A DNA stretch of 64,000 nucleotides from Undaria pinnatifida (Eukaryota; Sar; Phaeophyceae; Laminariales; Alariaceae): assembly GCA_012845835.1 (NCBI GenBank), contig JABAKD010000020.1, positions 4,066,913 to 4,130,912 of the forward strand. Reading direction: 5' to 3'. The position numbers were made by a program, and so were the translations under genes. Positions 13,912 through 51,272 of this stretch are shown here, in pieces; position 1 is the first letter of the stretch; each line of letters begins with the position of its first letter. The notes under the pieces are model-generated. The model worked only from the letters and a program-made list of their open reading frames with translations, searched no databases and had not been told where the DNA came from.

Positions 13912-14100
13912 ATAGCTGCCATAAAACGAAAGCCAGGCGCGGCGGGGGTTGGGGCAAAAGTCTCGTTGTAGTTATCTCTCGGACGTTGGCTGAATCCTCT
14001 ATCTACAAGTCGCGCGTTCGCCTTCGCTACCTTACCGGTTTCATCTGCCTTCCACGTAAAGACCCACATGACCAATATCACGTCCCCGCGTTTAGCTGCT
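13912..14100 (-). pseudogene. copia reverse transcriptase, N-terminal part
   Basis: WVFTWKADETGKVAKANARLV and GFSQRPRDNYNETFAP, then FRFMAAI, are the start of the RVT_2 domain. The domain is interrupted directly after MAAI by the insertion at 13,317-13,911 and resumes beyond it. Confidence 0.8.
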
Positions 14101-14457
14101 AAGCTACTCCGAATGTTCTCGCCCCTTGAAGTCCAGAGAGCTCCTGATGGGTCAAATACCCCCAGTTCACACTGTACTCCGAGTCCATAGACGCTTCGCA
14201 TGTCGCGGGCTCCGAACGCTCGTTCGCGTGGCATGTTGTTAGGGGAGGGAGGCTGTTGGGTGGGGCCTGGTTGTAAACGGCATGGTCTGCTGGCCCCGGA
14301 GCAGTTGTCGCTTTGTGGTACGCTCTCGTACTCGCGCGTGTTTGTCCCGGTTTCAAGAGCTCATTGTCTGGGGGATCCTCGTCAATGTGAAGGTTTTCGG
14401 TCTCCGGTACGGACGACGGCGACATCACCCCCGGAGGCAGCACCACCATCGGTGGCG

Positions 14458-14923
14458 TCGGCATCGTTACCGGCGTCATACAGATGGCACCGTTACCATG
14501 GTCGGTGTAACCGGTAGCACCGGTGGCACCTGCGGAACCGACGGCACGTATCTGACGTGCCAATCGGCCTCCCACACCACCGGTGCGGCAGCCGTCCACG
14601 TGTCCGGCCCAGCAGCGATGATCGGCACCCGCTCCATCTCCCAGGTGACGTCCCGCGTGTCGCTCGTTAGGCCAGGACCTTGACGGAGTCTCGGCATCGT
14701 TACCGGCGTCATACAGATGGCACCGTTACCATGGTCGGTGTAACCGGTAGCACCGGTGGCACCTGCGGAACCGACGGCACGTATCTGACGTGCCAATCGG
14801 CCTCCCACACCACCGGTGCGGCAGCCGTCCACGTGTCCGGCCCAGCAGCGATGATCGGCACCCGCTCCATCTCCCAGGTGACGTCCCGCGTGTCGCTCGT
14901 TAGGCCAGGACCTTGACGGAGTC
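14458..14923 (+). repeat. 233-bp tandem duplication in the copia post-integrase region
   Basis: Bases 14,458-14,690 are repeated at 14,691-14,923. Both copies read TCGGCATCGTTACCGGCGTC at the start and GACGGAGTC at the end and give the same translation, so the event looks recent compared with the decay around it. 233 is not a multiple of three, so the duplication shifts the frame. Confidence 0.92.
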
Positions 14924-19579: not shown

Positions 19580-22500
19580 GTGAGATCCCCAAACACGATT
19601 TCGTAGGTCAGCGGTCTGTGATTTGTCGGAACTAGCTTTTTCTTACGTGCGATGGCGGGGTACCACTCCGTCGGGGCTCCGGCTCTATTTTTCTGGGTGG
19701 TACTAATACGATAAATTTTCTCTCACGCTTGCTACAATAGGCCTGGGTAGCACTATGTGGCCAACCACCTTTCGTGGGTGCCGACGGTTGTCGTCTCACT
19801 AACTACCCAATACTTTTCGAAACCCCCATTCGCGATTTACCTTGTTTGTATTACTCGTTTGGTGTATACTTACCTCGTATGTACACGTGTGCCACGATAG
19901 AGATGTCACTATTTTTGCCAAATAATTCTCTGGATGGTATGGGGCTCCTTAACCCCAATTGCCGAAATGTCACTGAAATGTCGTTTTTACTTTGCAGCAA
20001 CTTTTTCGTGTACCTAGATGTAGACCACGGCTTTGTTCATCGGGTCGCGCTCTCAGTTCACTCTTCCATGAATTTTAGGGTTAGGGTTGGGAACCAAGTG
20101 ATGCATCTCGCCGCACCGTACCATGTCTGCGGGTCACGGGATGGTTCGCTTTCCTCCAAGTCGGCTAAGGTGTAGAGCTACCTCGAGTGCGGACCACCCG
20201 AAAAAATTAATGTCACACCTACCGTTTTAGCATGCATCTCTTGCTGGTTGCCGAGGGCGGAGATAGAGCTCCGATTCCATGTCTGCCTTTGGTGACGATC
20301 ACGTACATGGCTAGTCTGGTCACTGGTGTCATCGTCCGGGTGAATGTCCGGGGGGCCAAACCGGGTTGTGTGGTCGAGTCTTCTTGGCGTTGTCGATGAC
20401 AACAGGGCAAAGCCGCGGCAAGACTGGTGATTGTTGGTGAAATGTTGCCTGTTTTACGGAGGGTTGGTGCTTGCCGGTGTTCGTCCGAGGCGCTGGGGGA
20501 GGTGAGGGGGTGTACTCATTTCATGCATTGTCGTAGTTGTATGACCACAGACTCGCGCAGCCCTAAACCTCATGAACGGAGCACATCGACCAGGCAGACA
20601 TTGCATGCATGAAGCGCGAAGCATCGTGAGGTGTGCGGCGAGTCGCATGAAAGGTGAGGGAGGGGGGGGGGTGGTTTCGCCCGCGTCAGTGAGTTCGCAA
20701 AATTTACTGTTGATTGGATAACTCGTTCAGGATTACGTAGTAGTCTGGTCTGTAGAGCACATAGTTTAAGCTTCGCGTGTTGCCAGCTCGTCCCGCGACG
20801 TAAATGGGTCAACCCATACATTTTGACGTATGCTCCTCACATCTTGGGGTAGCCTAACACCGTGCGATGGCGCGCGTGTGGTACAAACGATGATGTACTT
20901 CCTCTGTGTTTTGCCTACGTGTTGAACCTACAGGACACCATGCTGGTTTGCTTTGTGCGGGTTTTATGACCGGCCGCTCGGTCTCCTCGCACTTCTGGGG
21001 CATGGTTTCCGACAGATACGGCTGCCGTTTTGTTATGGCTTTCGGACTGTCCGTGACGGTGGCCCTGTCCCTAGCCTTCGGGTGTTCGCCTACGTTCGCG
21101 TGGGCCGTTACTCTCAGGTGGGGTATACTCCGCAGTGTAGATGGGGGTTCTAGCGGGGCAAACAATAAACACCAATAAACACACACTCGCACATTCATGC
21201 TGGCGAAATATGAGCGAAAATATTCATCGGGGGCAATAACAACATTTACATTCGCGTGTATCTTACATCAGTGGGAGCGTGCGTGCGATAACTTTCGAGA
21301 GGACGCAATGCGCGTAGAAGAATGTACGGACCAGGCGTTGTATAGTACTTGGAGGCCGGTCGCCCCGGTGGCGTATCAGGTTATTGTCAAGGCTGGTATA
21401 GGTCAGTTTCGTGAGGTCGAATCCCCCCGAGTGCACATTCGTATAAAATGGTGGGGACCGTTTTTTGTGCAGAAATTGCCTTGCGGAGAGCGCGACAGCG
21501 TGAGGTAGCAACACTCGATGAAAAATCGACAGGCAGTGGGAGTGCTGAACCATATGTGCAAAAAACGTTGAAGGCAAGAACCTCGGGGGAGGAGGGACGA
21601 CACCGATGACCACGGCTTGTCCATAAGCTGGAAAGCAAACGTGTGCGAAAAAGAAAAAAAAAAAAGTACGAGGGCCACGTCGATAATATCCACGGGTGGC
21701 TATTACAGTACGACCAAAGCTACGGTAGAGGTAGGAGTTTTCGTCTGCAATTGGTTCTTAATGACGGGGCTCCTTAACCCCAAATAGTCGGAAAATAGGC
21801 CCCCTTAACCTTTGCATGACTCTCGTTCCATACCGAGGTCATGAGGTGTTTCGTCCGGTGGCAGTTATATGTTTAACCAAGCCAGTTTCTGGGAGTGGTT
21901 TTGAGCTCCCAAAGTTGTGGAAAGCTCAGAAAAAAAGGCGTGCACCCATATCGTAGCACGCATTTTAGGGGGGTCACTTTAATCGGGACAGTTTTTTTCA
22001 GTGTCTCGGGGTCCCTCCGGCGAGCGACCCCGGTGCTCCTTCGTGGTGTTAAGCTTTCGGTTTTGACCAATGCTACGATAGAGCTACACCATGTTTTTTC
22101 TGAGGTTCCTTCATTTGGGAGCTTAGGACCTCTTGCAGAACAAAATGTGAGGAAAGTTGAAATTGCTACCACCGGATGAACAATCCTGTGCCCTATTATA
22201 GGTACACGACGAGCATTGTGAAAAAAAAAAACTCATTTCGACGATTGTGGGTCAAGGAACCCCGTCGTTCAGAGACCGTTTTATACGACAAGTGATACCT
22301 TCATCGTAGCACGCGTCGTTTGTGACATGAAACACTCCCCACCAGACCTAGCATGACGATACGTTCGGCCGCACGTGCAGTAATTCGCTGATAACAACCT
22401 GTCTACACTGCTACGGTCCTGGCACGGCATCCCAGGTTTCTGCTAGGGCTACTGAACGGCACGCTAGTGGCGGGAAAAACGATCGTTTCCGATGTGTGCG

Positions 22501-25500: not shown

Positions 25501-28500
25501 ACCATACTGGCAGGTGCTACCCGATCGCAACACGTACTGTATCTGGCAGCGCCCGAGTCCGACAGTCTGCCATTTTTCGAACCGAGCGAGCATCACAGCT
25601 TGCACGATTTTACTACCCGTTTCCATCGTCGTACTTCGATGTATATCGCTCAGAGGCATCGAATAGATGCAGTGTCGTATTTGGCAACATAATGTTCATC
25701 GTGCCCTTAGCGAGGACGCTACTCTCGGCTGAGCTCCCTGTTTCAGTTTTCCCCCGTGCGCAACGTACCAACAGCTAGTGCCTGTAGTTGGTCTTGGTGC
25801 AACAGTGGCGGTGGCTACAGCGAAGGAAACGACGACGACCACAACGACGACGGCAGAAAGTTAAACGGTGACCCTTGACGTTTGATCCTCGAGATTATAA
25901 ATAAGAGCAGTGAAAATGGTACCCTGACGACAACCTGACAACCCCCTTCCCTTCTGCTGCGTTCAAAACACCGAACCCTGTTCGCATGTACTTGATCTTG
26001 GTGCCGCATACGTGGCGGTAGCGACGGGAAACATGACGACAACGACAGGAAGAACAACAAGTGCGACGAAAACAATAGCACGTACGACGGCAAGATAAAA
26101 AGCACGCCAGCGGCTAAATCGGCGTCTCCCCTGCCGATAGACGCTGACGGCGGTACCAGGGTGCCATCGTGGATGCTGTCAGCAACAATGCCTCCGCCGG
26201 TTGCTGCCCACGAGGGACCGGGCCATGATACTGAAAATCTCGAGCGCGACAGACAGATCCCCAGCAAAAAAGCTTGCTGTGGCAGCAACACATCCGCGTT
26301 ATTCTGGGTATAAACACGCTATTCGCGGTGAGTGCCGGCTACTCGCTTCCCCTCCCCCCCTCCCCGCGAATGTGCCGTTTCGCGTGGTGAGGGAAGGGGG
26401 CCTGATACTAGGCATATCAGGCAGGGGGGAAGAGGGGGGTGGGGGGAGGGGGTTGGCAGCCAGGGGTCTGCGTGCCCAGAGATGTACTCGGTATGGCAGC
26501 GATTCGCACCATTGTTGTTTTCAGGCTCCTGGCTAAAGAAACACTATTATACTAACTTTTCATTAAACATGAAGGTCCGACCAGATAAACAGGCCTCGCC
26601 ATGGCCTAGGTATATGCAAACATTTCGAATGCTTTTGTAACACACGACGACAGGTTTTTCGAAAGTGTTGAATAGGTTGCTGCTGCACATGTTGAGTGAG
26701 AAACTTCACAAGGTGTTTGGACGAAGAGCGAAACCGCTGTTGACCGACGCTACCTACGCATAGTGCTATACCCATTTTGCTCTACCGACGCGTGCTACGA
26801 TAGAGGCTACGATGGAAGTAGCACTTTTGCGCATGAAAATATCTCCGAATGACGAGGATCATCATTAACCCGACGAAACGCTCCCGGAGGAAAAATCCCA
26901 TGGCCTAGGTATACAACGAGAATCATGCTGCAGAAATGAGCTATTTCCGACGAGTTTAGGTCAAGGAGCCCCGTCACTCAGAAGAAACTTCAGACGAAAA
27001 GGGCTACGTCTATCGTAGACTCTATCGTAGCCTGTATCGTTGCCTGTATTGTAGCCTTTATCGTAGCCTCTATATTAGCCTTTATCGTAGCCTATCGTAG
27101 CCTGTATCATAGCCTCTATCATAGCCTCTGTTGTAGCCTGTATCGTAGCCTGTATCGTAGCCTCTACAGTAGCTTCTATAGTAGCCTCTATCGTAGCTTC
27201 TTTCGTAGCCTCTATCGTAGCCTCTATTAAAGCTTCTATCGCATCCTCTATCGTAGCCTGTATCGTAGCCTCTATAGCAGCCTCTATCGTAGCCTCTATC
27301 GTAGCCTGTATCGTAGCCTCTATCGTAGCCTTTATCGTAGCATCTATGGTAGCCTCTATCGTGGCCTCTGTCGTAGCCTCTATCGTAGCCTCTATAGTAG
27401 CCTCTATAGTAGCCTCTATCATCGTAGCCTCTATGGTAACCTCTATCGTAGCCTTTATCGTAGCCTCTATCGTAGCCTCTATCGTACCCTCTATCGTAAC
27501 CTCTACCCTAGCCTCTATCGTAGACTCTATCGTAGCCTCTATCGTAGCCTCTATGTAGAATCTATCGTAGCCTTTATCGTCGGCTGTTTCGTAGCCTCTA
27601 TAGTAGCCTCTATCGTAGCCTTTTTCCTAGCCCATATCGTAGCCTCTTTCGTATCCTCTATCGCAGCCTATATCGCAGCCTCTATCGTAGCCTGTATCGT
27701 AGCCCGTACTGTAGCCTCTATCGTAGCCTCTATATTAGGACTTATCGTAGCCTCTATCGTAGCCTCTATCGTAGCCTCCACCGTAGCCGTTATCGTAGCC
27801 TCTATAGTGGCCTCTATCGTAGCTTCTTTCGTATCCTCTATCGTAGCCTCTATCGCCGCCTCTGTAGTAGCTTCTATCGAAGCCTCCACCGTAGCCTCTA
27901 TAGTAGCCTCTATCGCAGCCTCTTTCGTAGCCTCTATAGTAGACTCTATTATCGTAGCCTCTATCGTAGCCTGTATCGTAGCCTCTATAGTAGCCTCGTT
28001 CGTGCCTCTGTCGTAGCCTCTATCGTAGCCTCCACCGTAGCCGTTATCGTAGCCTCTATAGTGGCCTCTATCGTAGCTTCTTTCGTATCCTCTATTGTAG
28101 CCTCTATCGCAGCCTCTGTAGTAGCTTCTATCGAAGCTTCCACCGTAGCCTCTATAGTAGCCTCTATCGCAGCCTCTCTCGTAGCCTCTATCGTAGACTC
28201 TATTATTGTAGCCTCTATCGTAGCCTGTATCGTAGCCTCTATAGTAGCCTCGTTCGTGCCTCTGTCGTAGCCTCTATCGTGGCCTCTATAGTAGTCTATC
28301 GTAGCCTGTATCGTAGCCTCTATAGTAGCCTCTACCGTAGCCTCTGTCGTAGGCTCTATCGTAAACTCTATCGTAGCCTTCATCGTAGCCTCTATCGTAG
28401 CCTCTATCGTAGCCTGTATTGTAGCCTCTATGGTAGCCTTTATCGTAGCCTCTTTCGCAGCCTCTATCGTAGACTCTATCGTAGCCTCTATCGTAGCTTC

Positions 28501-31500
28501 TTTCGTATCCTCTATCGTAGCCTCTATCGCCGCCTCTGTAGTAGCTTCTATCGAAGCCTCCACCCTAGCCTCTATAGTAGCCTCTATCGCAGCCTCTTTC
28601 GTAGCCTCTATAGTAGACTCTATTATCGTAGCCTCTATCGTAGCCTGTATCGTAGCCTCTATAGTAGCCTCGTTCGTGCCTCTGTCGTAGCCTCTATCGT
28701 AGCCTCCACCGTAGCCGTTATCGTAGCCTCTATAGTGGCCTCTATCGTAGCTTCTTTCGAATCCTCTATTGTAGCCTCTATCGCAGCCTCTGTAGTGGCT
28801 TCTATCGAAGCTTCCACCGTAGCCTCTATAGTAGCCTCTATCGCAGCCTCTCTCGTAGCCTCTATCGTAGACTCTATTATCGTAGCCTCTATCGTAGCCT
28901 GTATCGTAGCCTCTATAGTAGCCTCGTTCGTGCCTCTGTCGTAGCCTCTATCGTGGCCTCTATAGTAGTCTATCGTAGCCTGTATCGTAGCCTCTATAGT
29001 AGCCTCTACCGTAGCCTCTGTCGTAGGCTCTATCGTAAACTCTATCGTAGCCTTCATCGTAGCCTCTATCGTAGCCTCTATCGTAGCCTGTATTGTAGCC
29101 TCTATGGTAGCCTTTATCGTAGCCTCTTTCGTAGCCTCTATCGTAGACTCTATCGTAGCCTCTATCGTAGCTTCTTTCGTATCCTCTATCGTATCCTGTA
29201 TCGTAGCCTCTGTAGTAGCTTCTATCGAAGCCTCCACCGTAGCCTCTATAGTAGCCTCTATCGCAGCCTCTTTCGTAGCCTCTATAGTAGACTCTATTAT
29301 CGTAGCCTCTATCGTAGCCTGTATCGTAGCCTCTACCGCAGCCGTTATCGTAGCCTCTATAGTGGCCTCTATCGTAGCTTCTTTCGTATCCTCTATTGTA
29401 GCCTCTATCGTAGCCTCTGTAGTAGCTTCTATCGAAGCTTCTACCGTAGCCTCTATAGTAGCTTTTATCGCAGCCTCTTTCGTAGCCTCTATCGTAGACT
29501 CTATTATCGTAGCCTATATCGTAGCCTGTCTCGTAGCCTCTATAGTAGCCTCGTTCGTGCCTCTGTCGTAGCCTCTATCGTAGCCTCTATAGTAGTCTAT
29601 CGTAGCCTGTATCGTAGCCTCTATAGTAGCCTCTACCGTAACCTCTGTCGTAGGCTCTATCGTAAACTCTATCGTAGCCTTCATCGTAGCCTCTATCGTA
29701 GCGATTATAGTAGCCTCTATAGTAGCCTCTATCATCGTGGCCTCTATGGTAACCTCTATCGTAGCCTCTATCGTAGCCTCTATCGTAGCCTCTATCGTAG
29801 CCTCTATCGTAACCTCTACCCTAGCCTCTATCGTAGACTCTATCGTAGCCTCTATCGTAGCCTCTATGTAAAATCTGTCGTAGCCTTTTTCGTCGGCTGT
29901 TTCGTAGCCTCTATAGTAGCCTCTATCGTAGCCTTTTTCCTAGCCCATATCGTAGCCTCTTTCGTATCCTCTATCGCAGCCTATATCGCAGCCTCTATCG
30001 TAGCCTGTATCGTAGCCCGTACTGTAGCCTGTATCGTAGCCTCTATATTAGGACTTATCGTAGCCTCTATCGTAGCCTCTATCGTAGCCTCCACCGTAGC
30101 CGTTATCGTAGCCTCTGTAGTGGCCTCTATCGTAGCTTCTTTCGTATCCTCTATCGTAGCCTCTATCGCCGCCTCTGTAGTAGCTTCTATCGAAGCCTCC
30201 ACCGTAGCCTCTATAGTAGCCTTTATCGCAGCCTCTTTCGTAGCCTCTATAGTAGACTCTATTATCGTAGCCTCTATCGTAGCCTGTATCGTAGCCTCTA
30301 TAGTAGCCTCGTTCGTGCCTCTGTCGTAGCCTCTATCGTAGCCTCCACCGTAGCCGTTATCGTAGCCTCTATAGTGGCCTCTATCGTAGCTTCTTTCGTA
30401 TCCTCTATTGTAGCCTCTATCGCAGCCTCTGTAGTAGCTTCTATCGAAGCTTCCACCGTAGCCTCTAGAGTAGCCTCTATCGCAGCCTCTCTCGTAGCCT
30501 CTATCGTAGACTCTATTATCGTAGCCTCTATCGTAGCCTGTATCGTAGCCTCTATAGTAGCCTCGTTCGTGCCTCTGTCGTAGCCTCTATCGTAGCCTCT
30601 ATAGTAGTCTATCGTAGCCTGTATCGTAGCCTCTATAGTAGCCTCTACCGTAGCCTCTGTCGTAGGCTCTATCGTAAACTCTATCGTAGCCTTCATCGTA
30701 GCCTCTATCGTAGCCTCTATCGTAGCCTGCATTGTAGCCTCTATGGTAGCCTTTATCGTAGCCTCTTTCGTAGCCTCTATCGTAGACTCTATCGTAGCCT
30801 GTATCATAGCCTCTATCATAGCCTCCATTGTAGCCTGTATCGTATCCTGTATCGTAGCCTCTATAGTAGCTTCTGTTATAGCCTCTATCGTAGCTTCTTT
30901 CGTATCCTCTATCGTAGCCTCTATCGCCGCCTCTGTAGTAGCTTCTATCGAAGCCTCCACCGTAGCCTCTATAGTAGCCTCTATCGCAGCCTCTTTCGTA
31001 GCCTCTATAGTAGACTCTATTATCGTAGCCTCTATCGTAGCCTGTATCGTAGCCTCTATAGTAGCCTCGTTCATGCCTCTGTCGTAGCCTCTATCGTAGC
31101 CTCCACCGTAGCCGGTTTCGTAGCCTCTATAGTGGCCTCTATCGTAGCTTCTTTCGTATCCTCTATTGTAGCCTCTATCGCAGCCTCTGTAGTAGCTTCT
31201 ATCGAAGCTTCCACCGTAGCCTCTATAGTAGCCTCTATCGCAGCCTCTCTCGTAGCCTCTATCGTAGACTCTATTATCGTAGCCTCTATCGTAGCCTGTA
31301 TTGTAGCCTCTATAGTTGCCTCGTTCGTGCCTCTGTCGTAGCCTCTATCGTAGCCTCTATAGTAGTCTATCGTAGCCTGTATCGTAGCCTCTATAGTAGC
31401 CTCTACCGTAGCCTCTGTCGTAGGCTCTATCGTAAACTCTATCGTAGCCTTTATCGTAGCCTCTATCGTAGCCTCTATCGTAGCCTGTATTGTAGCCTCT

Positions 31501-34500
31501 ATGGTAGCCTTTATCGTAGCCTCTTTCGTAGCCTCTATCGTAGACTCTATCGTAGCCTGTATCATAGCCTCTATCATAGCCTCTATGGTAGCCTGTATCG
31601 TAGCCTGTTTCGTAGCCTCTATAGTAGCTTCTGTAGTAGCCTCTATCGTAGCTTCTTTCGTAGCCTCTATCGTAGCCTCTATTAAGGCTTTTATCGCAAC
31701 CTCTATCGTAGCCTGTATCGTAGCCTCTATAGCAGCCTCTATCGTAGCCTCTATCGTAGCCTTTATCGTAGCCTCTATCGTAGCCTTTATCGTAGCCTCT
31801 ATGGTAGCCTCTATCGTGGCCTCTGTCGTAGCCTCTATCGTAGCCTCTATAGTAGCCTCTATAGTAGCCTCTATCATCGTAGCCTCTATGGTAACCTCTG
31901 TCGTAGCTTCTATCGTAGCCTCTATCGTACCCTCTATCGTACCCTCTATCGTAACCTCTACCCTAGCCTCTATCGTAGACTCTATCGTAGCCTCTATCGT
32001 AGCCTCTATAGTAGTCTATCGTAGCCTGTATCGTAGCCTCTATAGTAGCCTCTACCGTAGCCTCTGTCGTAGGCTCTATCGTAAACTCTATCGTAGCCTT
32101 CATCGTAGCCTCTATCGTAGCCTCTATCGTAGCCTGTATTGTAGCCTCTATGGTAGCCTTTATCGTAGCCTCTTTCGTAGCCTCTATCGTAGACTCTATC
32201 GTAGCCTTTATCATAGCCTCTATCATAGCCTCTATTGTAGCCTGTATCGTAGCCTGTATCGTAGCCTCTATAGTAGCTTCTATAGTAGCCTCTATCGTAG
32301 CTTTTTTCGTAGCCTCTATCGTAGCCTCTATTAAAGCTTCTATCGCAACCTCTATCGTAGCCTGTATCGTAGCCTCTATCGTAGCCTGTATCGTAGCCTC
32401 TATCGTAGCCTTTATCGTAGCCTCCATGGTAGCCTCTATCGTGGCCTCTGTCGTAGCCTCAATCGTAGCCTCTATAGTAGCCTCTATAGTAGCCTCTATC
32501 ATCGTAGCCTCTATGGTAACCTCTATCGTAGCCTCTATCGTAGCCTCTGTCGTAGCCTCTATCGTATCCTCTATCGTAACCTCTACCCTAGCTTCTATCG
32601 TAGACTCTATCGTAGCCTCTATCGTAGCCTCTATGTAGAATCTATCGTAGCCTTTATTGTCGGCTGTTTCGTAGCCTCTATAGTAGCCTCTTTCGTAGCC
32701 TTTTTCCTAGCCCCTATCGTAGCCTCTTTCGTATCCTTTATCGCAGCCTATATCGCAGCCTCTATCGTAGCCTGTATCGTAGCCCGTACTGTAGCCTTAA
32801 TCGTAGCCTCTATATTAGGACTTATCGTAGCCTCTATCGTAGCCTCTATCGTAGCCTCCACCGTAGCCGTTATCGTAGCCTCTATAGTGGCCTCTATCGT
32901 AGCTTCTTTCGTATCCTCTATCGTAGACTCTATCGCCGCCTCTGTAGCAGCTTCTATCGAAGCCTCCACCGTAGCCTCTATAGTAGCCTCTATCGCAGCC
33001 TCTTTCGTAGCCTCTATAGTAGACTCTATTATCGTAGCCTCTATCGTAGCCTGTATCGTAGCCTCTATAGTAGCCTCGTTCGTGCCTCTGTCGTAGCCTC
33101 TATCGTAGCCTCCACCGTAGCCGTTATCGTAGCCTCCTCAGTGGCCTCTATCGTAGCTTCTTTCGTATCCTCTATTGTAGCCTCTATCGCAGCCTCTGTA
33201 GTAGCTTCTATCGAAGTTTCCACCGTAGCCTCTAGAGTAGCCTCTATCGCAGCCTCTCTCGTAGCCTCTATCGTAGACTCTATTATCGTAGCCTCTATCG
33301 TAGCCTGTATCGTAGCCTCTATAGAAGCCTCGTTCGTGCCTCTGTCGTAGCCTCTATCGTGGCCTCTATAGTAGTCTATCGTAGCCTGTATCGTACCCTC
33401 TATAGTAGCCTCTACCGTAGCCTCTGTCGTAGGCTCTATCGTAAACTCTATCGTAGCCTTCATCGTAGCCTCTATCGTAGCCTCTGTCGTAGCCTGTATT
33501 GTAGCCTCTATGGTAGCCTTTATCGTAGCCTCTTTCGTAGCCTCTATCGTAGACTCTATCGTAGCCTGTATCGTAGCCTGTATCGTAGCCTCTATAGTAG
33601 CTTCTATCGTAGCTTCTTTCGTAGACTCTATCGCAGCCTCTATCGTAGTCTGTATCGTAGCCTGTACTGTAGCCTCTATCGTAGCCTCAATATTAGGACT
33701 TATCGTAGCCTCTATCGTAGCCTGTATCGTAGCCTCTACCGTAGCCGTTATCGTAGCCTCTATAGTGGCCTCTATCGTAACTTCTTTCGTATCCTCTATT
33801 GTAGCCTCTATCGTAGCCTCTGTAGTAGCTTCTATCGAAGCTTCCACCGTAGCCTCTAAAGTAGCCTCTATCGCAGCCTCTTTCGGAGCCTCTATCGTAG
33901 ACTCTATTATCGTAGCCTATATCGTAGCCTGTGTCGTAGCCTCTATAGTAGCCTCGTTCGTGCCTCTGTCGTAGCCTCTATCGTGGCCTCTATAGTAGTC
34001 TATCGTAGCCTGTATCGTAGCCTCTATAGTAGCCTCTACCGTAGCCTCTGTCGTAGGCTCTATCGTAAACTCTATCGTAGCCTTCATCGTAGCCTCTATC
34101 GTAGCCTCTATCGTAGCCTGTATTGTAGCCTCTATGGTAGCCTTTATCGTAGCCTCTTTCGTAGCCTCTATCGTAGACTCTATCGTAGCCTGTATCGTAG
34201 CCTCTATCATAGCCTCTATGGTAGCCTGTATCGTATCCTGTATCGTAGCCTCTAAAGTAGCTTCTATAGTAGCCTCTATCGTAGCTTCTTTCGTATCCTC
34301 TATCTTAGCCTCTATCGCCGCCTCTGTAGTAGCTTCTATCGAAGCCTCCACCGTAGCCTCTATAGTAGCCTCTATCGCAGCCTCTTTCGTAGCCTCTATA
34401 GTAGACTCTATTATCGTAGCCTCTATCGTAGCCTGTATCGTAGCCTCTATAGTAGCCTCGTTCGTGCCTCTGTCGTAGCCTCTATCGTAGCCTCCACCGT

Positions 34501-37500
34501 AGCCGTTATCGTAGCCTCTTTAGTGGCCTCTATCGTAGCTTCTTTCGTATCCTCTATTGTAGCCTCTATCGCAGCCTCTGTAGTAGCTTCTATCGAAGCT
34601 TCCACCGTAGCCTCTATAGTAGCCTCTATCGCAGCCTCTCTCGTAGCCTCTATCGTAGACTCTATTATCGTAGCCTCTATCGTAGCCTGTATCGTAGCCT
34701 CTATAGTAGCCTCGTTCGTGCCTCTGTCGTAGCCTCTATCGTAGCCTCTATAGTAGTCTATCGTAGCCTGTATCGTAGCCTCTATAGTAGCCTCTACCGT
34801 AGCCTCTGTCGTAGGCTCTATCGTAAACTCTATCGTAGCCTTCATCGTAGCCTCTATCGTAGCCTCTATCGTAGCCTGTATTGTAGCCTCTATGGTAGCC
34901 TTTATCGTAGCCTCTTTCGTAGCCTCTATCGTAGACTCTATCGTAGCCTGTATCATAGCCTCTATCATAGCCTCTATTGTAGCCTGTATCGTAGCCTGTA
35001 TCGTAGCCTCTATAGTAGCTTCTATAGTAGCCTCTATCGTAGCTTCTTTCGTAGCCTCTATCGTAGCCTCTATTAAAGCTTCTATCGCAACCTCTATCGT
35101 AGCCTGTATCGTAGCCTCTATCGTAGCCTTTATCGTAGCCTCCATGGTAGCCTCTATCGTGGCCTCTGTCGTAGCCTCAATCGTAGCCTCTATAGTAGCC
35201 TCTATAGTAGCCTCTATCATCGTAGCCTCTATGGTAACCTCTATCGTAGCCTCTATCGTAGCCTCTGTCGTAGCCTCTATCGTACCCTCTATCGTAACCT
35301 CTACCCTAGCCTCTATCGTAGACTCTATCGTAGCCTCTATCGTAGCCTCTATGTAGAATCTATCGTAGCCTTTATTGTCGGCTGTTTCGTAGCCTGTATA
35401 GTAGCCTCTTTCGTAGCCTTTTTCCTAGCCCCTATCGTAGCCTCTTTCGTATCCTCTATCGCAGCCTATATCGCAGCCTCTATCGTAGCCTGTATCGTAG
35501 CCCGTACTGTAGCCTCTATCGTAGCCTCTACATTAGGACTTATCGTAGCCTCTATCGTAGCCTCTATCGTAGCCTCCACCGTAGCCGTTATCGTAGCCTC
35601 TATAGTGGCCTCTATCGTAGCTTCTTTCGTATCCTCTATCGTAGCCTCTATCGCCGCCTCTGTAGTAGCTTCTATCGAAGCCTCCACCGTAGCCTCTATA
35701 GTAGCCTCTATCGCAACCTCTTTCGTAGCCTCTATCGTAGACTCTATTATCGTAGCCTCTATCGTAGCCTGTATCGTAGCCTCTATAGTAGCCTCGTTCG
35801 TGCCTCTGTCGTAGCCTCTATCGTAGCCTCCACCGTAGCCGTTATCGTAGCCTCTTTAGTGGCCTCTATCGTAGCTTCTTTCGTATCCTCTATTGTAGCC
35901 TCTATCGCAGCCTCTGTAGTAGCTTCTATCGAAGCTTCCACTGTAGCCTCTAGAGTAGCCTCTATCGCAGCCTCTCTCGTAGCCTCTATCGTAGACTCTA
36001 TTATCGTAGCCTCTATCGTAGCCTGTATCGTAGCCTCTATAGAGGCCTCGTTCGTGCCTCTGTCGTAGCCTCTATCGTGGCCTCTATAGTAGTCTATTGT
36101 AGCCTGTATCGTACCCTCTATAGTAGCCTCTACCGTAGCCTCTGTCGTAGGCTCTATCGTAAACTCTATCGTAGCCTTCATCGTAGCCTCTATCGTAGCC
36201 TCTGTCGTAGCCTGTATTGTAGCCTCTATGGTAGCCTTTATCGTAGCCTCTTTCGTAGCCTCTATCGTAGACTCTATCGTAGCCTGTATCGTAGCCTGTA
36301 TCGTAGCCTCTATAGTAGCTTCTATCGTAGCTTCTTTCGTAGACTCTATCGCAGCCTCAATCGTAGTCTGTATCGTAGCCTGTACTGTAGCCTCTATCGT
36401 AGCCTCTATATTAGGACTTATCGTAGCCTCTATCGTAGCTTGTATCGTAGCCTCTACCGTAGCCGTTATCGTAGCCTCTATAGTGGCCTCTATCGTAGCT
36501 TCTTTCGTATCCTCTATTGTAGCCTCTATCGTAGCCTCTGTAGTAGCTTCTATCGAAGCTTCCACCGTAGCCTCTATAGTAGCTTTTATCGCAGCCTCTT
36601 TCGGAGCCTCTATCGTAGACTCTATTATCGTAGCCTCTATCGTAGCCTGTATCGTAGCCTCTATAGTAGCCTCGTTCGTGCCTCTGTCGTAGCCTCTATC
36701 GTAGCCTCCACCGTAGCCGTTATCGTAGCCTGTATCGTAGCCTCTATCGTAGCTTCTTTCGTATCCTCTATTGTAGCCTCTATCGCAGCCTTTGTAGTAG
36801 CTTCTATCGAAGCTTCCACCGTAGCCTCTATAGTAGCCTCTATAGCAGCCTCTCTCGTAGCCTTTATCGTAGACTCTATTATCGTAGCCTCTATCGTAGC
36901 CTGTATCGTAGCCTCTATAGTAGCCTCGTTCGTGCCTCTGTCGTAGCCTCTATCGTAGCCTCTATAGTAGTCTATCGTAGCCTGTATCGTAGCCTCTATA
37001 GTAGCCTCTACCGTAGCCTCTGTCGTAGGCTCTATCGTAAACTCTATCGTAGCCTTCATCGTAGCCTCTATCGTAGCCTCTATCGTAGCCTGTATTGTAG
37101 CCTCTATGGTAGCCTTTATCGTAGCCTCTTTCGTAGCCTCTATCGTAGACTCCATCGTAGCCTGTATCATAGCCTCTATCATAGCCTCTATTGTAGCCTG
37201 TATCGTAGCCTGTATCGTAGCCTCTATAGTAGCTTCTATGGTAGCCTCTATCGTAGCTTCTTTCGTAGCCTCTATCGTAGCCTCTATTAAAGCTTCTATC
37301 GCAACCTCTATCGTAGCCTGTATCGTAGCCTCTATAGCAGCCTCTATCGTAGCCTCTATCGTAGCCTGTATCGTAGCCTCTATCGTAGCCTTTATCGTAG
37401 CCTCTATGGTAGCCTCTATCGTGGCCTCTGTCGTAGCCTCTATCGTAGCCTCTATAGTAGCCTCTATAGTAGCCTCTATCATCGTAGCCTCTATGGTAAC

Positions 37501-40500
37501 CTCTATCGTAGCCTCTATCGTAGCCTCTATCGTAGCCTCTATCGTACCCTCTATCGTAACCTCTACCCTAGCCTCTATCGTAGACTCTATCGTAGCCTCT
37601 ATCGTAGCCTCTATGTAGAATCTATCGTAGCCTTTATCGTCGGCTGTTTCGTAGCCTCTATAGTAGCCTCTATCGTAGCCTTTTTCCTAGCCCCTATCGT
37701 AGCCTCTTTCGTATCCTCTATCGCAGCCTATATCGCAGCCTCTATCGTAGCCTGTATCGTAGCCCGTACTGTAGCCTCTATCGTAGCCTCTATATTAGGA
37801 CTTATCGTAGCCTCTATCGTAGCCTCTATCGTAGCCTCCACCGAAGCCGTTATCGTAGCCTCTATAGTGGCCTCTATCGTAGCTTCTTTCGTATCCTCTA
37901 TCGTAGCCTCTATCGCCGCCTCTGAGGTAGCTTCTATCGAAGCCTCCACCGTAGCCTCTATAGTAGCCTCTATCGCAGCCTCTTTCGTAGCCTCTATAGT
38001 AGACTCTATTATCGTAGCCTCTATCGTAGCCTGTATCGTAGCCTCTTTAGTAGCCTCGTTCGTGCCTCTGTCGTAGCCTCTATCGTAGCCTCCACCGTAG
38101 CCGTTATCGTAGCCTCTTTAGTGGCCTCTATTGTAGCTTCTTTCGTATCCTCTTTTGTAGCCTCTATCGCAGCCTCTGTAGTAGCTTCTATCGAAGCTTC
38201 CACCGTAGCCTCTAGAGTAGCCTCTATCGCAGCCTCTCTCGTAGCCTCTATCGTAGACTCTATTATCGTAGCCTCTATCGTAGCCTGTATCGTAGCCTCT
38301 ATAGTAGCCTCGTTCGTGCCTCTGTCGTAGCCTCTATCGTGGCCTCTATAGTAGTCTATCGTAGCCTGTATCGTAGCCTCTATAGTAGCCTCTACCGTAG
38401 CCTCTGTCGTAGGCTCTATCGTAAACTCTATCGTAGCCTTCATCGTAGCCTCTATCGTAGCCTCTGTCGTAGCCTGTATTGTAGCCTCTATGGAAGCCTT
38501 TATCGTAGCCTCTTTCGTAGCCTCTATCGTAGCCTCTATCGTAGCCTGTATCGTAGCCTGTATCGTAGCCTCTATAGTAGCTTCTATGGTAGCTTCTTTT
38601 GTAGACTCTATCGCAGCCTCCATCGTAGTCTGTATCGTAGCCTGTACTGTAGCCTCTATCGTAGCCTCTATATTAGGACTTATCGTAGCCTCTATCGTAG
38701 CCTGTATCGTAGCCTCTACCGTAGCCGTTATCGTAGCCTCTAAAGTGGCCTCTATCGTAGCTTCTTTCGTATCCTCTATTGTAGCCTCTATCGTAGCCTC
38801 TGTAGTAGCTTCTATCGAAGCTTCCACCGTAGCCTCTATAGTAGCTTTTATCGCAGCCTCTTTCGGAGCCTCTATCGTAGACTCTATTATCGTAGCCTAT
38901 ATCGTAGCCTGTGTCGTAGCCTCTATAGTAGCCTCGTTCGTGCCTCTGTCGTAGCCTCTATCGTAGCCTCTATCGTAGTCTATCGTAGCCTGTATCGTAG
39001 CCTCTATAGTAGCCTCTACCGTAGCCTCTGTCGTAGGCTCTATCGTAAACTCTATCGTAGCCTTCATCGTAGCCTCTATCGTAGCCTCTATCGTAGCCTG
39101 TATTGTAGCCTCTATGGTAGCCTTTATCGTAGCCTCTTTCGTAGCCTCTATCGTAGACTCTATCGTAGCCTGTATCGTAGCCTCTATCATAGCCTCTATG
39201 GTAGCCTGTATCGTATCCTGTATCGTAGCCTCTAAAGTAGCTTCTATAGTAGCCTCTATCGTAGCCTTTATCGTCGGCTGTTTCGTAGCCTTTTTAGTAA
39301 CCTCTATCGTAGCCTTTTTCCTAGCCCATATCGTAGCCTCTTTCGTATCCTCTATCGCAGCCTATATCGCAGCCTCTATCGTAGCCTGTATCGTAGCCCG
39401 TACTGTAGCCTCTATCGTAGCCTCTATATTAGGACTTATCGTAGCCTCTATCGTAGCCTCTATCGTAGCCTCCACCGTAGCCGTTATCGTAGCCTCTATA
39501 GTGGCCTCTATCGTAGCTTCTTTCGTATCCTCTATCGTAGCCTCTATCGCCGCCTCTGTAGTAGCTTCTATCGAAGCCTCTACCGTAGCCTCTATAGTAG
39601 CCTCTATCGCAGCTTCTTTCGTAGCCTCTATAGTAGACTCTATTATCGTAGCCTCTATCGTAGCCTGTATCGTAGCCTCTATAGTAGCCTCGTTCGTGCC
39701 TCTGTCGTAGCCTCTATCGTAGCCTCCACCGTAGCCGTTATCGTAGCCTCTATAGTGGCCTCTATCGTAGCTTCTTTCGTATCCTCTATTGTAGCCTCTA
39801 TCGCAGCCTCTGTAGTAGCTCCTATCGAAGCTTCCACCGTAGCCTCTATAGTAGCCTCTATCGCAGCCTCTCTCGTAGCCTCTATCGTAGACTCTATTAT
39901 CGTAGCCTCTATCGTAGCCTGTATCGTAGCCTCTATAGTAGCCTCGTTCGTGCCTCTGTCGTAGCCTCTATCGTAGCCTCTATAGTAGTCTATCGTAGCC
40001 TGTATCGTAGCCTCTATAGTAGCCTCTACCGTAGCCTCTGTCGTAGTCTCTATCGTAATTTCTACCGTAGCCTTCATCGTAGCCTCTATCGTAGCCTCTA
40101 TCGTAGCCTGTATTGTAGCCTCTATGGTAGCCTTTATCGTAGCCTCTTTCGTAGCCTCTATCGTAGACTCTATCGTAGCCTGTAACGTAGCCTGTATCGT
40201 AGCCTCTATAGTAGCTTCTATCGTAGCTTCTTTCGTAGACTCTATCGCAGCCTCTATCGTAGTCTGTATCGTAGCCTGTACTGTAGCCTCTATCGTAGCC
40301 TCTATATTAGGACTTATCGTAGCCTCTATCGTAGCCTCTATCGTAGCCTCCACCGTAGCCGTTATCGTAGCCTCTATAGTGGCCTCTATTGTAGCTTCTT
40401 TCGTATCCTCTATTGTAGCCTCTATCGTAGCCTCTGTAGTAGCTTCTATCGAAGCTTCCACCGTAGCCTCTATAGTAGCCTTTATCGCAGCCTCTTTCGT

Positions 40501-43500
40501 AGCCTCTATCGTAGACTCTATTATCGTAGCCTATATCGCAGCCTGTGTCGTAGCCTCTGTAGTAGCCTCGTTCGTGCTTCTGTCGTAGCCTCTATCGTAG
40601 CCTCTATAGTAGTCTATCGTAGCCTGTATCGTAGCCTCTATAGTAGCCTCTACCGTAGCCTCTGTCGTAGGCTCTATCGTAAACTCTATCGTAGCCTTCA
40701 TCGTAGCCTCTATCGTAGCCTCTATCGTAGCCTGTATTGTAGCCTCGATTGTAGCCTTTATCGTAGCCTCTTTCGTAGCCTCTATCGTAGACTCTATCAT
40801 AGCCTGTATCGTAGCCTGTATTGTAGCCTCTATAGTAGCTTCTATCGTAGCTTCTTTCGTACACTCTATCGTAGCCTCTATTGTAGGTTCTATCGTAACC
40901 TCTATCGTAGCCTGTATCGTATCTTCCAGAGCAGCCTCTATTGTAGCCTCTATCGTAGCCTGTATCGTAGCCTCTATCGTAGCCATTATATGTAGCCTCT
41001 ATCGTAGCTTCTATCGTGGCCTCTGTCGTAGCCTCTATCGTAGCCTCCATCGTAGCCTCTATAGTAGCCTCTATCATCGTAGCCTCTATCATCGTAGCCT
41101 CTATCGTAACCTCTATGGTAACCTCTATCGTAGCCTCTATCGTAGCCTGTATCGTAGCTTTTATGATAGCCTCGATCGTAGCCTCTTTCGTAGCTTCTAT
41201 CGTATACTCTATCGTAGCCTCTATCGTAGCTTGTATCGTAGCCTGTATCGTAGCCTGTATCGTAGCCTCTATCGTAGCTTCTATCGTAGCCTCTATCGCA
41301 GCCTATATCGCACCCTATATCGTAGCCTGAATCGTTGCCTGTATTGTAGCCTCTATCGTAGCCTCTTTCGTAGCCTTCATCGTAGACTCTATCGTAGCCT
41401 GTATCGTAGCCTGTATCGTAGCCTCTATAGTAGCTTCTATCGTAGCTTCTTTCGTAGACTCTATCGCAGCCTCTATCGTAGTCTGTATCGTAGCCTGTAC
41501 TGTAGCCTCTATCGTAGCCTCTATATTAGGACTTATCGTAGCCTCTATCGTAGCCTCTATCGTAGCCTCCACCGTAGCCGTTATCGTAGCCTCTATAGTG
41601 GCCTCTATTGTAGCTTCTTTCGTATCCTCTATTGTAGCCTCTATCGTAGCCTCTGTAGTAGCTTCTATCGAAGCTTCCACCGTAGCCTCTATAGTAGCCT
41701 TTATCGCAGCCTCTTTCGTAGCCTCTATCGTAGACTCTATTATCGTAGCCTATATCGCAGCCTGTGTCGTAGCCTCTGTAGTAGCCTCGTTCGTGCTTCT
41801 GTCGTAGCCTCTATCGTAGCCTCTATAGTAGTCTATCGTAGCCTGTATCGTAGCCTCTATAGTAGCCTCTACCGTAGCCTCTGTCGTAGGCTCTATCGTA
41901 AACTCTATCGTAGCCTTCATCGTAGCCTCTATCGTAGCCTCTATCGTAGCCTGTATTGTAGCCTCGATTGTAGCCTTTATCGTAGCCTCTTTCGTAGCCT
42001 CTATCGTAGACTCTATCATAGCCTGTATCGTAGCCTGTATTGTAGCCTCTATAGTAGCTTCTATCGTAGCTTCTTTCGTACACTCTATCGTAGCCTCTAT
42101 TGTAGGTTCTATCGTAACCTCTATCGTAGCCTGTATCGTATCTTCCAGAGCAGCCTCTATTGTAGCCTCTATCGTAGCCTGTATCGTAGCCTCTATCGTA
42201 GCCATTATATGTAGCCTCTATCGTAGCTTCTATCGTGGCCTCTGTCGTAGCCTCTATCGTAGCCTCCATCGTAGCCTCTATAGTAGCCTCTATCATCGTA
42301 GCCTCTATCATCGTAGCCTCCATCGTAACCTCTATGGTAACCTCTATCGTAGCCTCTATCGTAGCCTGTATCGTAGCTTTTATGATAGCCTCGATCGTAG
42401 CCTCTTTCGTAGCTTCTATCGTATACTCTATCGTAGCCTCTATCGTAGCTTGTATCGTAGCCTGTATCGTAGCCTGTATCGTAGCCTCTATCGTAGCTTC
42501 TATCGTAGCCTCTATCGCAGCCTATATCGCACCCTATATCGTAGCCTGAATCGTTGCCTGTATTGTAGCCTCTATCGTAGCCTCTATATTAGCCTTCATC
42601 GTAGCCTCTATCGTAGCCTCTATCGTAGCCTGTATCGTAGCCTCTATCGTAGCTTCTATCGTCGCCTTTATCGTAGCTTCTACAAGGTTCCCCTTCGGGA
42701 GGTGGACACGTGCCTCCCGGGGGCGACGCAAGTCGAATGACTACAACTGATGAAGATGAAGTATTTATGCAGAAGGTGTATATCGGAGGGATGCGTAGTG
42801 GAAAGAATGTGGATAATATAGTAAGATATCACAGACATTTGGAGGAGGAGGGTTGGGATATTGCTGAGGCTCGGTGTGATAAGTTATTCGAAAGTCCACT
42901 CCGTATAACTGCGTGGCAGCAACTAATTCTACGTTTGTAGCATATGCGTAAGGCTGTGACATGAAGTGGAGATACTCTTCAACACTCGAATATGTAGTAG
43001 GTTGAGATCCAGCGACTTCCACAAGTTCTTGATTTGCTCCAGCTAAGATGCTGTCGTGGAAAGTGTTGAAACCTGATCCTGGGATAACGGTGTACAAATT
43101 GGTTGTGATGTGGGCAATAATATGTGCACGGACGATGTGATGTAAAGCTGGGTTGTTGTGCACACGACGCGAGATACATCTTAATAAACATGCACCATCA
43201 CCAATCTCGGGAATAATGGACCATTGACCAGAATTGTTATTGTTGCCGCTGTTGTTGTCTTGATCATTTTCGCTGTCTGATGGGTTTGTACTGCTGTCGC
43301 TGCTGTTAGAGGAATCATTGGTGTCAATTTGTTATTTGTTTTCTGTGTCCAGTATTTTTCCCCGCGTGCTTATACCGATGTTTGTTGCCGATATGGTCTG
43401 TTGTGTGCACATCGTTACTTTTGCTTGGGTTGTTGTTGCTACTTTATATCTCTTTATACAGGTTTCGCTACTGCTGTATGGTAACCACCGTGTCAATTGT

Positions 43501-46500
43501 GAGGGAGAACTCACAGTAATGACATAGTTCACGTCGTTGCAGCGGGTACATATACACCGCGCCCGCGTCTAGCAGTGCGGGAAAATTCTCTCGCAAATAC
43601 ATTTTGATGCCACCCCGATGTACGTGCGAGGACTAAAGTTCCACCGTGTGTGTAGTAGACGTATTTAAGCCTGACGATATGCCTATATTTTAGGCTCTAA
43701 ACCAAATTAAGCCCTATCGTGTTTTAAATGTCTACAAAATAGGTCTATTTTATCGACCTAACGACCACGGCAGACCACGGTGAGATGTGGATTTTCCCAA
43801 AATATGCACTTGGACACATTTTGGCCCAAGTGCATATTTGAAGCAATTTTCCGAGTATTTTTCAGCAAACAGCATTTCAGACGACAAAAGCTCGAGGAAA
43901 CATCAGACGGATGCCTACATTTCGAGGGTGGAAATTGAACCGGGTTGAGGGCCAGTCCTGCTGTGCTGCTGTACTGACTGCCACACTGAGGCACACCGAA
44001 GGCGGCAGACGCCTGCGAGGTATCCTACATATGAAGCGACTATGGAGTACGAAGCACTCAATGTTTTTGCCAGGCACCAGTTATTTGTTTTGGCCGTTTG
44101 TTCAAGCTCGCACAGCATGGGCAGGGGAGGGTCTTTCTCGAAGTTTCCACCCACTCATTCATGTGCTGACTCATGACATAAATCCTCGTCTTGCCATCTG
44201 CGTCTGGAGTAGTGCAGAAATATCATAGTCTATTTTCAAGTAGTTTGATCTTTCCTCGGCTTTTCTTTTTATGCGTACTGAAAGAGACCACTATTTCGAG
44301 TTTTAGACATATGGTGTTTTTTTTATGCGTTTAAGGTCGAAATATCGAACGGCCTAGCTCTTCCAGTTGGAAGTACTTAAGACCTAACCTCGAGGCTTAA
44401 ATACGTCTAGTGTGTGGTTGCCCGGGGACAGAAGTGTCTCGTACCCCGCAAAATAGAGCCAGTCTCGGCGGCTTTCCGCGGCCATAGCTCGCGCCACGGA
44501 CGTCCCATGAGCCCGGCACACGGCTGATAATATACCGACGGGTAGTCTGATCGCATTGCAGAAGAAAGCACACAAAAAAACTCTGCGCCGGCGGAGAAAA
44601 AGGGACGGACTAGGCAAAAAAATCAAAATGGTACATATGCATATAGTGGCCTCTATCGTAGCTTCTTTCGTATCCTCTATCGTAGCCCCTATCGCAGCCT
44701 CTATAGTAGCCTCTATCGTAGCCTCTATGGTAGCCTGTACCGTAGCCTCTACAGCAGCCTCTATCGTAGCCTGTATCGTAGTCTTTGTCGTAGCCTCCTT
44801 TGTAGCTTTTATTGTAGCCTCTATGGTAGCCTCTACCGTGGCCTCTGTCGTAGCGTCTATCGTAGCCTCTGTCGTAGCCTCTATCGTAGCCTCTATCGTA
44901 GCACGCGTTCCCATATCGCCGAAATGTCGCTCTTGTTTTGCAACACGATTTTTTTTCGTGCACCCAGGCCATGGCATTGTTCATCGGGTCTTGGGCGTTC
45001 AATTTATTGGAATAATTTTCCTCGTATCATAGGGTATCATAGGGTGTCATAGGAGGGGGTGTAGAGCTCCCCTCTCGACGAGTGAGGAGGCTTAGAAAAG
45101 ACATCGGTGCATTTTAAGTTTTTTTCTCAACTCCTCGGTTCAGAAACCAGGGGATTGGGCAGCCGATGGGCTAGAAAGGGAAATATCCCCTCTACAATAG
45201 CAGAAGCATTATTGCGTAGACTGCGTTTGGTGCACTTTAGGCGGTGATCCCGTTTGTGACCCCGTGTCACGTTCGTTTGCCGTACAACTCATAGTATAAA
45301 CATGTGTCAAACAAGCACCATTCTAACCTGACCTGCGGACCAGCCTAGACCCGCCAGCGTATGTTGTAGGCCAGTGTCACGGACAGAAGCCAAATGAGAG
45401 GGTTTAGCAGACGTTTTCTAAGTTTCCACCCCCTGCGCGTGCTGTGCGCAGATTACATACACCGGCTTCGAGACCGTGCTCACCCTGTGGGCCCTCAGCA
45501 GCATCGAAAAGGGTGGACTGGATTGGTCAGTTCTCGAGATCGGGCAGGTGGGAGCGACATCCTTCAACCCTCCCCTCGATTTGAATGCACCATGTCATAC
45601 CTTGTCTTGGGGGTCGAAGAAATTATCGGTTTGTCCTTTTTGCTACACGATATTCCTGCCCCCTCTGGAGGCTGAGGGAATCGATCTTCTCACAGCGTGC
45701 GTCTTGTGCACGGTAAATTTAGCGTTCGTTTCAACGATTGTAGTTTGAGGTTCAAGCGTTTTTCAGCAAATTCAGCTCGGCGGTAAAGCCTTTCAACGAT
45801 CATAGCTTGGCTACTGATCGTTCCAGCGAAAAACGGTCAACATTTACGCATTTCAACGATTGTGGCGTGAGCTTCAAGCCTTCTTAGGACTGCAGCGTAG
45901 AATTTGTACCAGATCGCATTCGACTGGATTGTCGGGTTCGACGGGTGTATGTCTGTTTGATCTTCACAACAAACTGCCATTCTTCGAGCCGTCGACGGCC
46001 AGCCGATCCAGCCTCCGTCCCGATTCTCCATCCCGGAGAGATGCAAGCTCCGTGGTAACTAACACAACGGACTCGTGATCCTTAACCGTGCCGAGGCGTG
46101 GAGTAGAGCAGCATGGCGATCCTTGACCGGCGCTGTGCCTCTCCAGGGCTGCACGAAAATCGTTTACAAGGAGGCATTATTTTGTACAAGACGATGTATG
46201 GCCATGTTGGTGGACTGACGACATGTACTCGCACCATAACCCTAATTGCCTTCGGGCGCAACGAAAGCGATTCTCCTGCCTTTGATGCACGCACGCACGC
46301 ACGCGCTCCCTCCGGCTTCCCTTCCCCGCTGAAAAGGTTTTCTTCGCGTCCGGGGTGATGTTGCTGCTGTTCGAGCTATTTGCCGTGCCGATCATTACTC
46401 CAAGATTGGGCATTAGGTTCTGCCAGAGATTATCCTCGGTCATCGAGGTCCCTTTATACATGGCAATCACTCTTCTCTCCCACATGGATAACACCGGACG

Positions 46501-50224: not shown

Positions 50225-51034
50225 TCCTGAGAATGAGATTCACACGTAGAACAGCGGCCCTTCCTAACATAGAACTAAGAAATTGTTACGGCGACCAGCG
50301 TGGGGGCGCAAATGTACTAAAGGTCGTGGTCTCAACAGCGACGCATTGGGCGCAGAGAAGAGGGCGGTCACTCTATTGGTGTGAGGCGGATTTTTCATCA
50401 CGTAGACGGTTTCATTTGCGTGAAATTACCACCTCTCCTAGGGGACAGGGCGCTCGGCTGAGCATCATCCCGTCGTAACAACCTGGTGTTCAGTCCTATT
50501 CAGTTATTAATAACCTCCGTGAGAAAGAAAGAAAAGTCAAAAGTCGATCGTGAGGCGGCAAACCGCTGTTCGCACGTGAATGGACGCTGCTCACTCCTAT
50601 GTATACGTCGTCCTCCGTGCTTAAGATGCTCAGACGCTTGATTACGCCGCTGGTGACTTGAAAACTTGGACAATTTGTCGATGTGTTCGGTTGGAATCTC
50701 GGAGAAATTAAATGTGCAATTAGATACTGAATACTGGTGCGAACACTGAAGGCGGCATAGTGAGTCATGAGTATATCTGGGGCTGTACAGTTCCTTAGAT
50801 CCGACCCACCGCTGTATCATGGTGAACCCAGCGAGATGAGGATAACACAAGAGAGACATTAGTGAACGTTCAGGTAGATAGGACCAGGACACAGTGCCAG
50901 AAGTACAAGTTACAACAAAAACTACGGGTGTGTGGGCTGTCGAAATCATGGCATGGGATCTGATGCTGTGGAAAATGTTCGTGTCATGGAACCGAGTTTT
51001 TCCATACTCTACCCTACGTAACAATTTTGACTCA

Positions 51035-51272
51035 TGCTAAGATAGGGGTGCACCCATCTGTTTCTCAGGCTCTTACTTTCAGGGGCTCTGTTTCCAACCC
51101 GAAACCTGACGTTGAGAAAAATTAGGAGTACCATCCGATGAATATTTCCATGGCCTAGGTATTTAAAAATTCATTTTGCGAAAAGAAAAAAGAAATACGG
51201 ACAAATTTGGGTTAAGAAGCACCGTCACTAAGAAAACGTTTTTAGTAAAAAATTGCTATCTCTATCGTAGGA
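51035..51272 (+). mobile_element. ~241-bp MITE-like element, copy B
   Basis: Starts TGCTAAGATAGGGGTGCACC, continues CTGTTTCTCAGG, CCATGGCCTAGGTATTT and GGTTAAGAAGCACCGTC, and ends TCTATCGTAGGACGCG. At 238 bp it is almost full length. It lies outside the transporter gene. Confidence 0.72.

Follow-up and report, generated by a model that had tools for sequence, protein, structure and literature searches.

A 12-bp array of satellite length that appears to have grown within the terminal inverted repeat of a transposon in Undaria pinnatifida

How does a tandem array of more than a thousand short units come to lie at the very end of a small transposon? We addressed this question in a 64,000-nt stretch of the genome of the brown alga Undaria pinnatifida (C27:4,066,913-4,130,912, hereafter the window), using the whole 511-Mb assembly of 68 contigs for searches. 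Tandem Repeats Finder (TRF) delimited a period-12 array at 27,009-42,682 of the window, with 1302.3 copies of the unit TCTATCGTAGCC, and a second 12-bp run at 44,649-44,902; together they amount to ~15.9 kb and ~1,323 units, a satellite-like length. An earlier interpretation based on the letters alone (the sequence-only reading) had described a satellite of ~1,300 units beside a miniature inverted-repeat transposable element (MITE) and derived it from the terminal inverted repeat (TIR) of that element; both the array and its MITE neighbor were confirmed. Collectively, our data make us highly confident that the array arose within the TIR of the MITE and lengthened later, in a family whose TIR seems generally prone to expansion. 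The features that make up the locus are the following (window positions).

26786..27018, plus strand: MITE copy hosting the array, with left TIR, body and start of the right TIR (profile positions 3-246, E 1.7e-44)
26787..26818, plus strand: left TIR of the array-bearing copy, read as two tandem 12-bp units (CTACGATAGAGG CTACGATGGAAG; pattern match with 2 mismatches)
27009..42682, plus strand: main 12-bp array (TRF, ~1,302 units), with blocks repeating at larger spacing
42683..44641, strand not assigned: high-copy transposon within the array (1,959 bp; TA at 42681-42682 and 44642-44643)
44644..44902, plus strand: distal part of the main array (TRF, 21.2 units at 44649-44902; phase continuity)
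44889..44908, plus strand: MITE right terminus closing the array (profile positions 234-253, E 0.021)
44915..45111, minus strand: degraded MITE-like remnant touching the array end (profile positions 24-182, E 8.7e-5)

The position of the array within the element can be read at both of its edges. Its start at 27,009 falls inside the right TIR of the MITE copy at 26,786, so that the proposed origin at the right terminal repeat stands, with the boundary moved from ~27,020. At the far edge, the match to the MITE right terminus at 44,889-44,908 is short and weak on its own (E 0.021), and a pattern of the terminus preceded by two units matches the array end (C27:4111790-4111820) with 0 mismatches. 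Both here and in a paralogue described below, the array is thus flanked by the MITE body on one side and by the MITE terminus on the other. The sequence-only reading had taken the second run for another small array ending in a MITE terminus; the terminus was indeed found, whereas the separate array was not. When the flanks are joined without the intervening transposon (...GTAGCTTCTATAGTGGCCTCTATCG...), the 12-bp phase is restored, and for this reason the two runs are one array split by an insertion. The transposon edges, CAAGG and TATGCA, each lie beside TA (two copies compared on the left, three on the right), and along with the phase of the empty site they led us to reject the small array as a separate event. 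Among the best 40 of 733 candidates scored, 24 other full-length matches to this transposon are 97-99% identical. Its minus-strand open frame at 42,765-43,331 has a weak OTU-like match (E 0.0059) that lies below the curated cut-off. Several of its genomic copies appear tandem or rearranged, for example at C57:318-325 kb.

The element itself belongs to a family with a consensus of ~250 bp, which we reconstructed from 17 genomic copies selected for bodies resembling that of the window copy; the same copies gave the profile used throughout. It is a non-autonomous DNA element with ends GACGCGTGCTACGATAGAGG... and ...CCTCTATCGTAGCACGCGTC and a right TIR consensus of ...GTGCTACCTCTATCGTAGCACGCGTC. 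Short, non-coding and bounded by inverted GACGCGTGCTACGATAGAGG... termini, it also reaches the high copy number of a MITE, its exact 20-base terminus occurring 2,904 times in the genome (1,494 + 1,410). The foldback-like element Galileo is said to have repetitive TIRs of variable length, as Tm1 does; here, long internally repetitive TIRs are not a family trait, as all 17 aligned copies have single-unit termini. Near-full copies (42 in number) carried candidate 4-bp target repeats at their exact ends in six cases (0.16 expected per offset) and 3-bp repeats at another offset in ten (0.66 expected), with 25 offsets tried per repeat length and the two signals at different offsets. Three neighbors in the window also have single-unit termini.

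21712..21962, minus strand: MITE copy, single-unit termini (E 9.6e-49, ends read)
22065..22318, plus strand: MITE copy, single-unit termini (E 5.6e-44, ends read)
51029..51278, plus strand: MITE copy, single-unit termini (E 7.2e-29, ends read)

Elsewhere in the window, a perfect 233-bp tandem duplication lies at 14,458-14,923, near a reverse-transcriptase (RVT_2) fragment at 13,899-14,360.

Genome-wide searches revealed that tandem copies of the 12-bp unit are confined to very few places. The perfect dimer occurs 43 times, 40 of them in the window and three in the 30-kb paralogue stretch. Allowing up to three mismatches raised the number of places to 986; 22 of these lie outside the two C27 stretches, which account for the other 964. 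Backward-read controls gave 0 in the perfect-dimer, MITE-anchored and three-mismatch searches alike, which discards chance matching as the reason why the MITE carries the 12-mer. Moreover, with 19 of the 22 outside places listed, the four 12-bp arrays of at least four units (window, C27 paralogue, C11 and C56) all sit at a MITE-family terminus; the TIR origin thus survived the search for arrays lying away from such termini. The name satellite fits less well. The length is that of a classical satellite, whereas abundance at several loci is not seen, perfect dimers being restricted to two places on one contig. What we describe is a minisatellite at a single locus that has reached the length of a satellite, and not a dispersed satellite.

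We found the paralogue at C27:3,928,000-3,957,999, an inverted copy of window ~15.9-56.6 kb that lies ~150 kb away and whose flanks differ from the window by 7.3% mismatches (18,249 ungapped bases in blocks >600 bp). Its MITE (C27:3944470-3944720) is 95% identical to the window copy and shares the two-unit left TIR, and the same element carries 72.9 (~73) 12-bp units. The paralogue also shares the right flank, which begins where the small array of the window stops, and nothing in the paralogue stretch aligned to the transposon at 42,683-44,641. From the left edge the two arrays match unit by unit for ~500 bp, with 95-100% identity per 60-column row where free of 12-bp indels, beyond which they are no more alike than unrelated units; on the right, good alignment is restricted to the flank and the final units. 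When the large array was cut into 39 tiles of 400 bp, 32 of them recurred elsewhere in it at ≥97% (97-100%) identity. Block copies are spaced at least 674 bp apart, and the most alike pair spacing is that of 1,219 bp, at which six tiles are paired with 98.5-100% identity. Because identity within the array so exceeds that between the flanks, most of the growth of the window array probably took place after the segmental duplication, through the copying of blocks. Both paralogues also contain a 42-43-bp repeat run of differing length (window 46,660-46,988; L051 3,604-3,835).

Expanded termini are not peculiar to this insertion. A MITE-anchored pattern (MITE end plus two units, up to three mismatches) gave nine matches, four at C27 loci and five at further loci (L054-L058); the latter are all MITE copies, with two units at four loci and three at L058. 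With unanchored patterns built on TIR words, a match to the MITE profile at E <1e-3 was present at 23 of 28 fetched loci (4/6, 7/10 and 12/12 by batch), these loci being hand-chosen from the lists, with 22 of the 40 loci in one list fetched. The background in 1-kb tiles was 9/56 for the flanks of MITE loci and 6/45 for the window (together 15/101), which yields a binomial P of ~2e-14 for 23/28 against the higher of the two, a figure to be read with the fetched stretches measuring 0.8-2.2 kb. Array units can match the profile ends by themselves; 22 of the 28 loci cover at least 100 profile positions, and L074 covers 57. TIR-word tandem pairs numbered 334 in the genome, of which 205 fall within the window or the stretch of its paralogue. 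As a single internal-word control, the MITE word GGTATACAAC formed 36 tandem pairs (backward control 1), none of them in MITE context, as the first word was never followed by GAG; the words are similarly abundant, being met 18, 12 and 12 times when the central parts of 18 loci are counted. As read from the list, 27 of the 36 pairs come from another dispersed repeat and four from one 22-bp array on C22. That dispersed repeat, GGTATACAAC-15 bases-GGTATACAAC, has near-fixed spacing and is present on many contigs, outside MITE context.

TIR-derived arrays at other family copies have unit lengths of their own, from 11 to 84 bp, and up to 41 units.

L059 (C11): 12 bp x 16.1, own unit CCTTTATCGTAG
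L060 (C56): 12 bp x 4.1, ends in GCA, not GCC
L061: 28 bp x 8.1
L065: 31 bp, ~36 units summed across four TRF rows
L066: near-complete MITE, then 24 bp x 19.0 (96% matches), then the terminus
L067: 11 bp x 41
L069: 27 bp x 3.1, with 4-bp GCAT (5 bp if GCATG) on either side of element plus array

Further unanchored loci add units of 28 bp (x 3.7), 33 bp (x 8.2) and 64 bp (x 8.4), among others. The array of L078 lies 90 bp away from the MITE end, and the relation of array to MITE is less clean at L065, L073 and L080. Two loci on C23, L071 and L075, are paralogues ~86 kb apart that align at 85%, gaps included, along 1 kb; a 59-bp gap of about two units falls inside their TIR run, leaving four units in the former and two in the latter. 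Hence the statement that other copies carry a single unit holds for the window neighbors and the aligned copies, and not for every copy (L054-L060, L066, L067 and L069, among others). Similarly, less-expanded versions of the same insertion, which had been envisaged at allelic sites, exist as paralogues, at C27:3.94 Mb with 73 units and in the C23 pair with two versus four. The TIR of the family thus seems generally prone to array growth.

Could the order of events have been the reverse, with the array present first and the MITE inserting at its edge, or with a family that targets such arrays? MITE and array are in contact, and the degraded MITE-like remnant abuts the far end as well. However, the units are TIR sequence, their length varies by locus, the array is followed by the final TIR bases at the window locus, the paralogue, L059, L066 and L069 among others, and the flanking repeat of L069 stands outside element and array together; we regard this order as extremely unlikely. 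Alternatively, the TIR may have become repeated once, in an ancestral MITE whose transposition then gave rise to a foldback-like subfamily. L058 and L062, with about three units each, do pair (support 95/94) on a tree built from 62 TIR-trimmed MITE bodies, 24 of them labeled expanded (L073, L078 and L083, which adjoin arrays, carried the label single). On the whole tree, however, the expanded label needs 18 changes against a mean of 19.2 in shuffles, 157 of 500 shuffles being as low, and the variation in unit length (11-84 bp) and the single-unit termini of all 17 aligned copies also speak against a common repetitive ancestor, making such a spread very unlikely. Expanded copies are unclustered on a weak tree, which does not prove the number of births.

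As for timing, the long array might be ancestral, with the paralogue contracted to 73 units. Tandem arrays can contract, and the paralogue retains both array ends and not the middle. Against this, the blocks of the window array are so alike that they appear younger than the divergence of the flanks, which homogenisation within the window could explain too; contraction, together with such homogenisation, is the main alternative for timing, and we consider it rather unlikely. Finally, a 12-bp unit leaves several frames open, and stop-to-stop frames of up to 553 aa cross the array, as a coding repeat might display. A total of 171 indel events of 1-2 bp across the 1,296 units of the main array, and substitution rates that peak at unit positions 2, 4 and 6 with no three-base pattern, led us to reject a coding repeat, to which we assign next to no probability.

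Growth of the array from within a family TIR, which we favor, has to be held against several observations. Five of the 28 unanchored loci (L063, L064, L068, L070 and L072) lack a MITE; the patterns require a TIR word, which favors TIR arrays and overlooks those derived from elsewhere in the element; and the backward controls of these patterns were nonzero (9 versus 334, and 4 versus 92). Sequence outside the TIR can expand too, as L082 has an internal 26 bp x 4.0 run (288-390), and the 84-bp x 3.8 array of L086 (681-1001) has a unit spanning the right third of the MITE. No target repeat was seen at the window MITE copy, and the length of the array is known from the assembly alone. Support on the tree is mostly weak, with 9 of 59 inner branches starred, and the starred branches force three changes. 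The small-to-large order between the paralogues is inferred and could be mimicked by homogenisation. With regard to the trigger, one TIR variant, GTGCTAC-CTCTATC-GTAGCAC, is predicted to form a hairpin of -5.7 kcal/mol versus -2.97 in shuffles (z -1.95), whereas the other variant (z -0.20) and four array units fold no better than shuffles, so that hairpin-stalled replication is a mere suggestion on a weak argument. Breaks made by transposase at the element ends would also fit.

Position within the element, intermediates, block structure, empty site and expansions at other copies are direct observations, around which we propose a course of events whose trigger, time order and independence at each locus we infer. 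First, a MITE would have inserted at the site, from a family whose termini number in the thousands genome-wide, and a 12-bp piece of the right TIR would have been tandemly duplicated, possibly by replication slippage or by microhomology repair of a break. From at least two units onward, unequal exchange or block duplication may have lengthened the run between the body and the last few bases. With some tens of units, as the paralogue suggests, a segmental duplication would have placed an inverted copy of the region 150 kb away; the window lineage would then have grown to its present size via block copying, and the TA-flanked transposon would have split the array later. The slippage or unequal exchange put forward by the sequence-only reading is accordingly retained in its second part, which the near-identical tiles support, while slippage would concern the first step. 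Extra units at both ends of the window copy fit a tendency of the TIR itself. More tentatively, and with somewhat less than even confidence, we envisage the family TIR as a genome-wide nursery with tens of independent births and at least ten unit lengths, in which transposase breaks or nicks, or stalled replication, with slippage repair would seed satellites, one of which escaped to ~1,300 units.

The birth of a satellite usually has to be deduced from its end product, whereas here graded stages coexist within one genome: 1, 2, 3, 4, 16, 73 and ~1,323 units of 12 bp, plus the other unit lengths. Two paralogue pairs share an insertion and differ in its unit number, and the family offers thousands of termini for comparison; this would make it possible to measure how often satellites are born, in which register they start and what sequence they require. 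Among the papers listed in our literature searches, no case of the present MITE family or of a brown alga was recognizable, which is no proof of absence.

The general process is already known. In the excerpts considered, TIRs appear in reviews among the sources of satellites, with Tetris and the Xenopus Xmix MITE as examples (PMC12628747, PMC9659126). The foldback transposon Tetris of Drosophila virilis, as covered in excerpts of its description, has TIR tandem repeats amplified within the element to satellite-like TIR-220 arrays that reach 66 copies; repeat number varies between copies of the element, two allelic ones having three and four repeats (PMC4079207). Its repeats, however, are ~220 bp long and a structural part of the element, whereas the usual element here has one unit, the expanded units of 11-84 bp are locus-specific and one array reaches ~1,323 units. 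Xenopus Xstir/Xmix MITE (Xstir being tabled as TIR-derived, PMC9659126) and miDNA4 likewise comprise MITE-derived tandem arrays in composites of MITE and array (PMC12628747, PMC9659126); in the parts at hand, there is one repeat type per element, in contrast to the different units within one family found here. The BrickBuilt MITE of Porphyromonas gingivalis also contains a short (23-nt) minisatellite between inverted-repeat ends, although it is bacterial and its repeat is, in the portion available, a feature of the element itself (PMC4596501). The foldback-like element Tm1 likewise has TIRs that vary in length and are composite or internally repetitive; there, as described, the repetitive TIR defines the family, unlike the occasional state of single copies found here (PMC3169594). 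Satellite birth from TIRs, as far as these accounts of Tetris and Xstir go, is the same kind of process as the one at this locus; what is unusual here is its recurrence, with varied units and visible intermediates, and the present case also differs in its much shorter, locus-specific units and in one array with far more of them.

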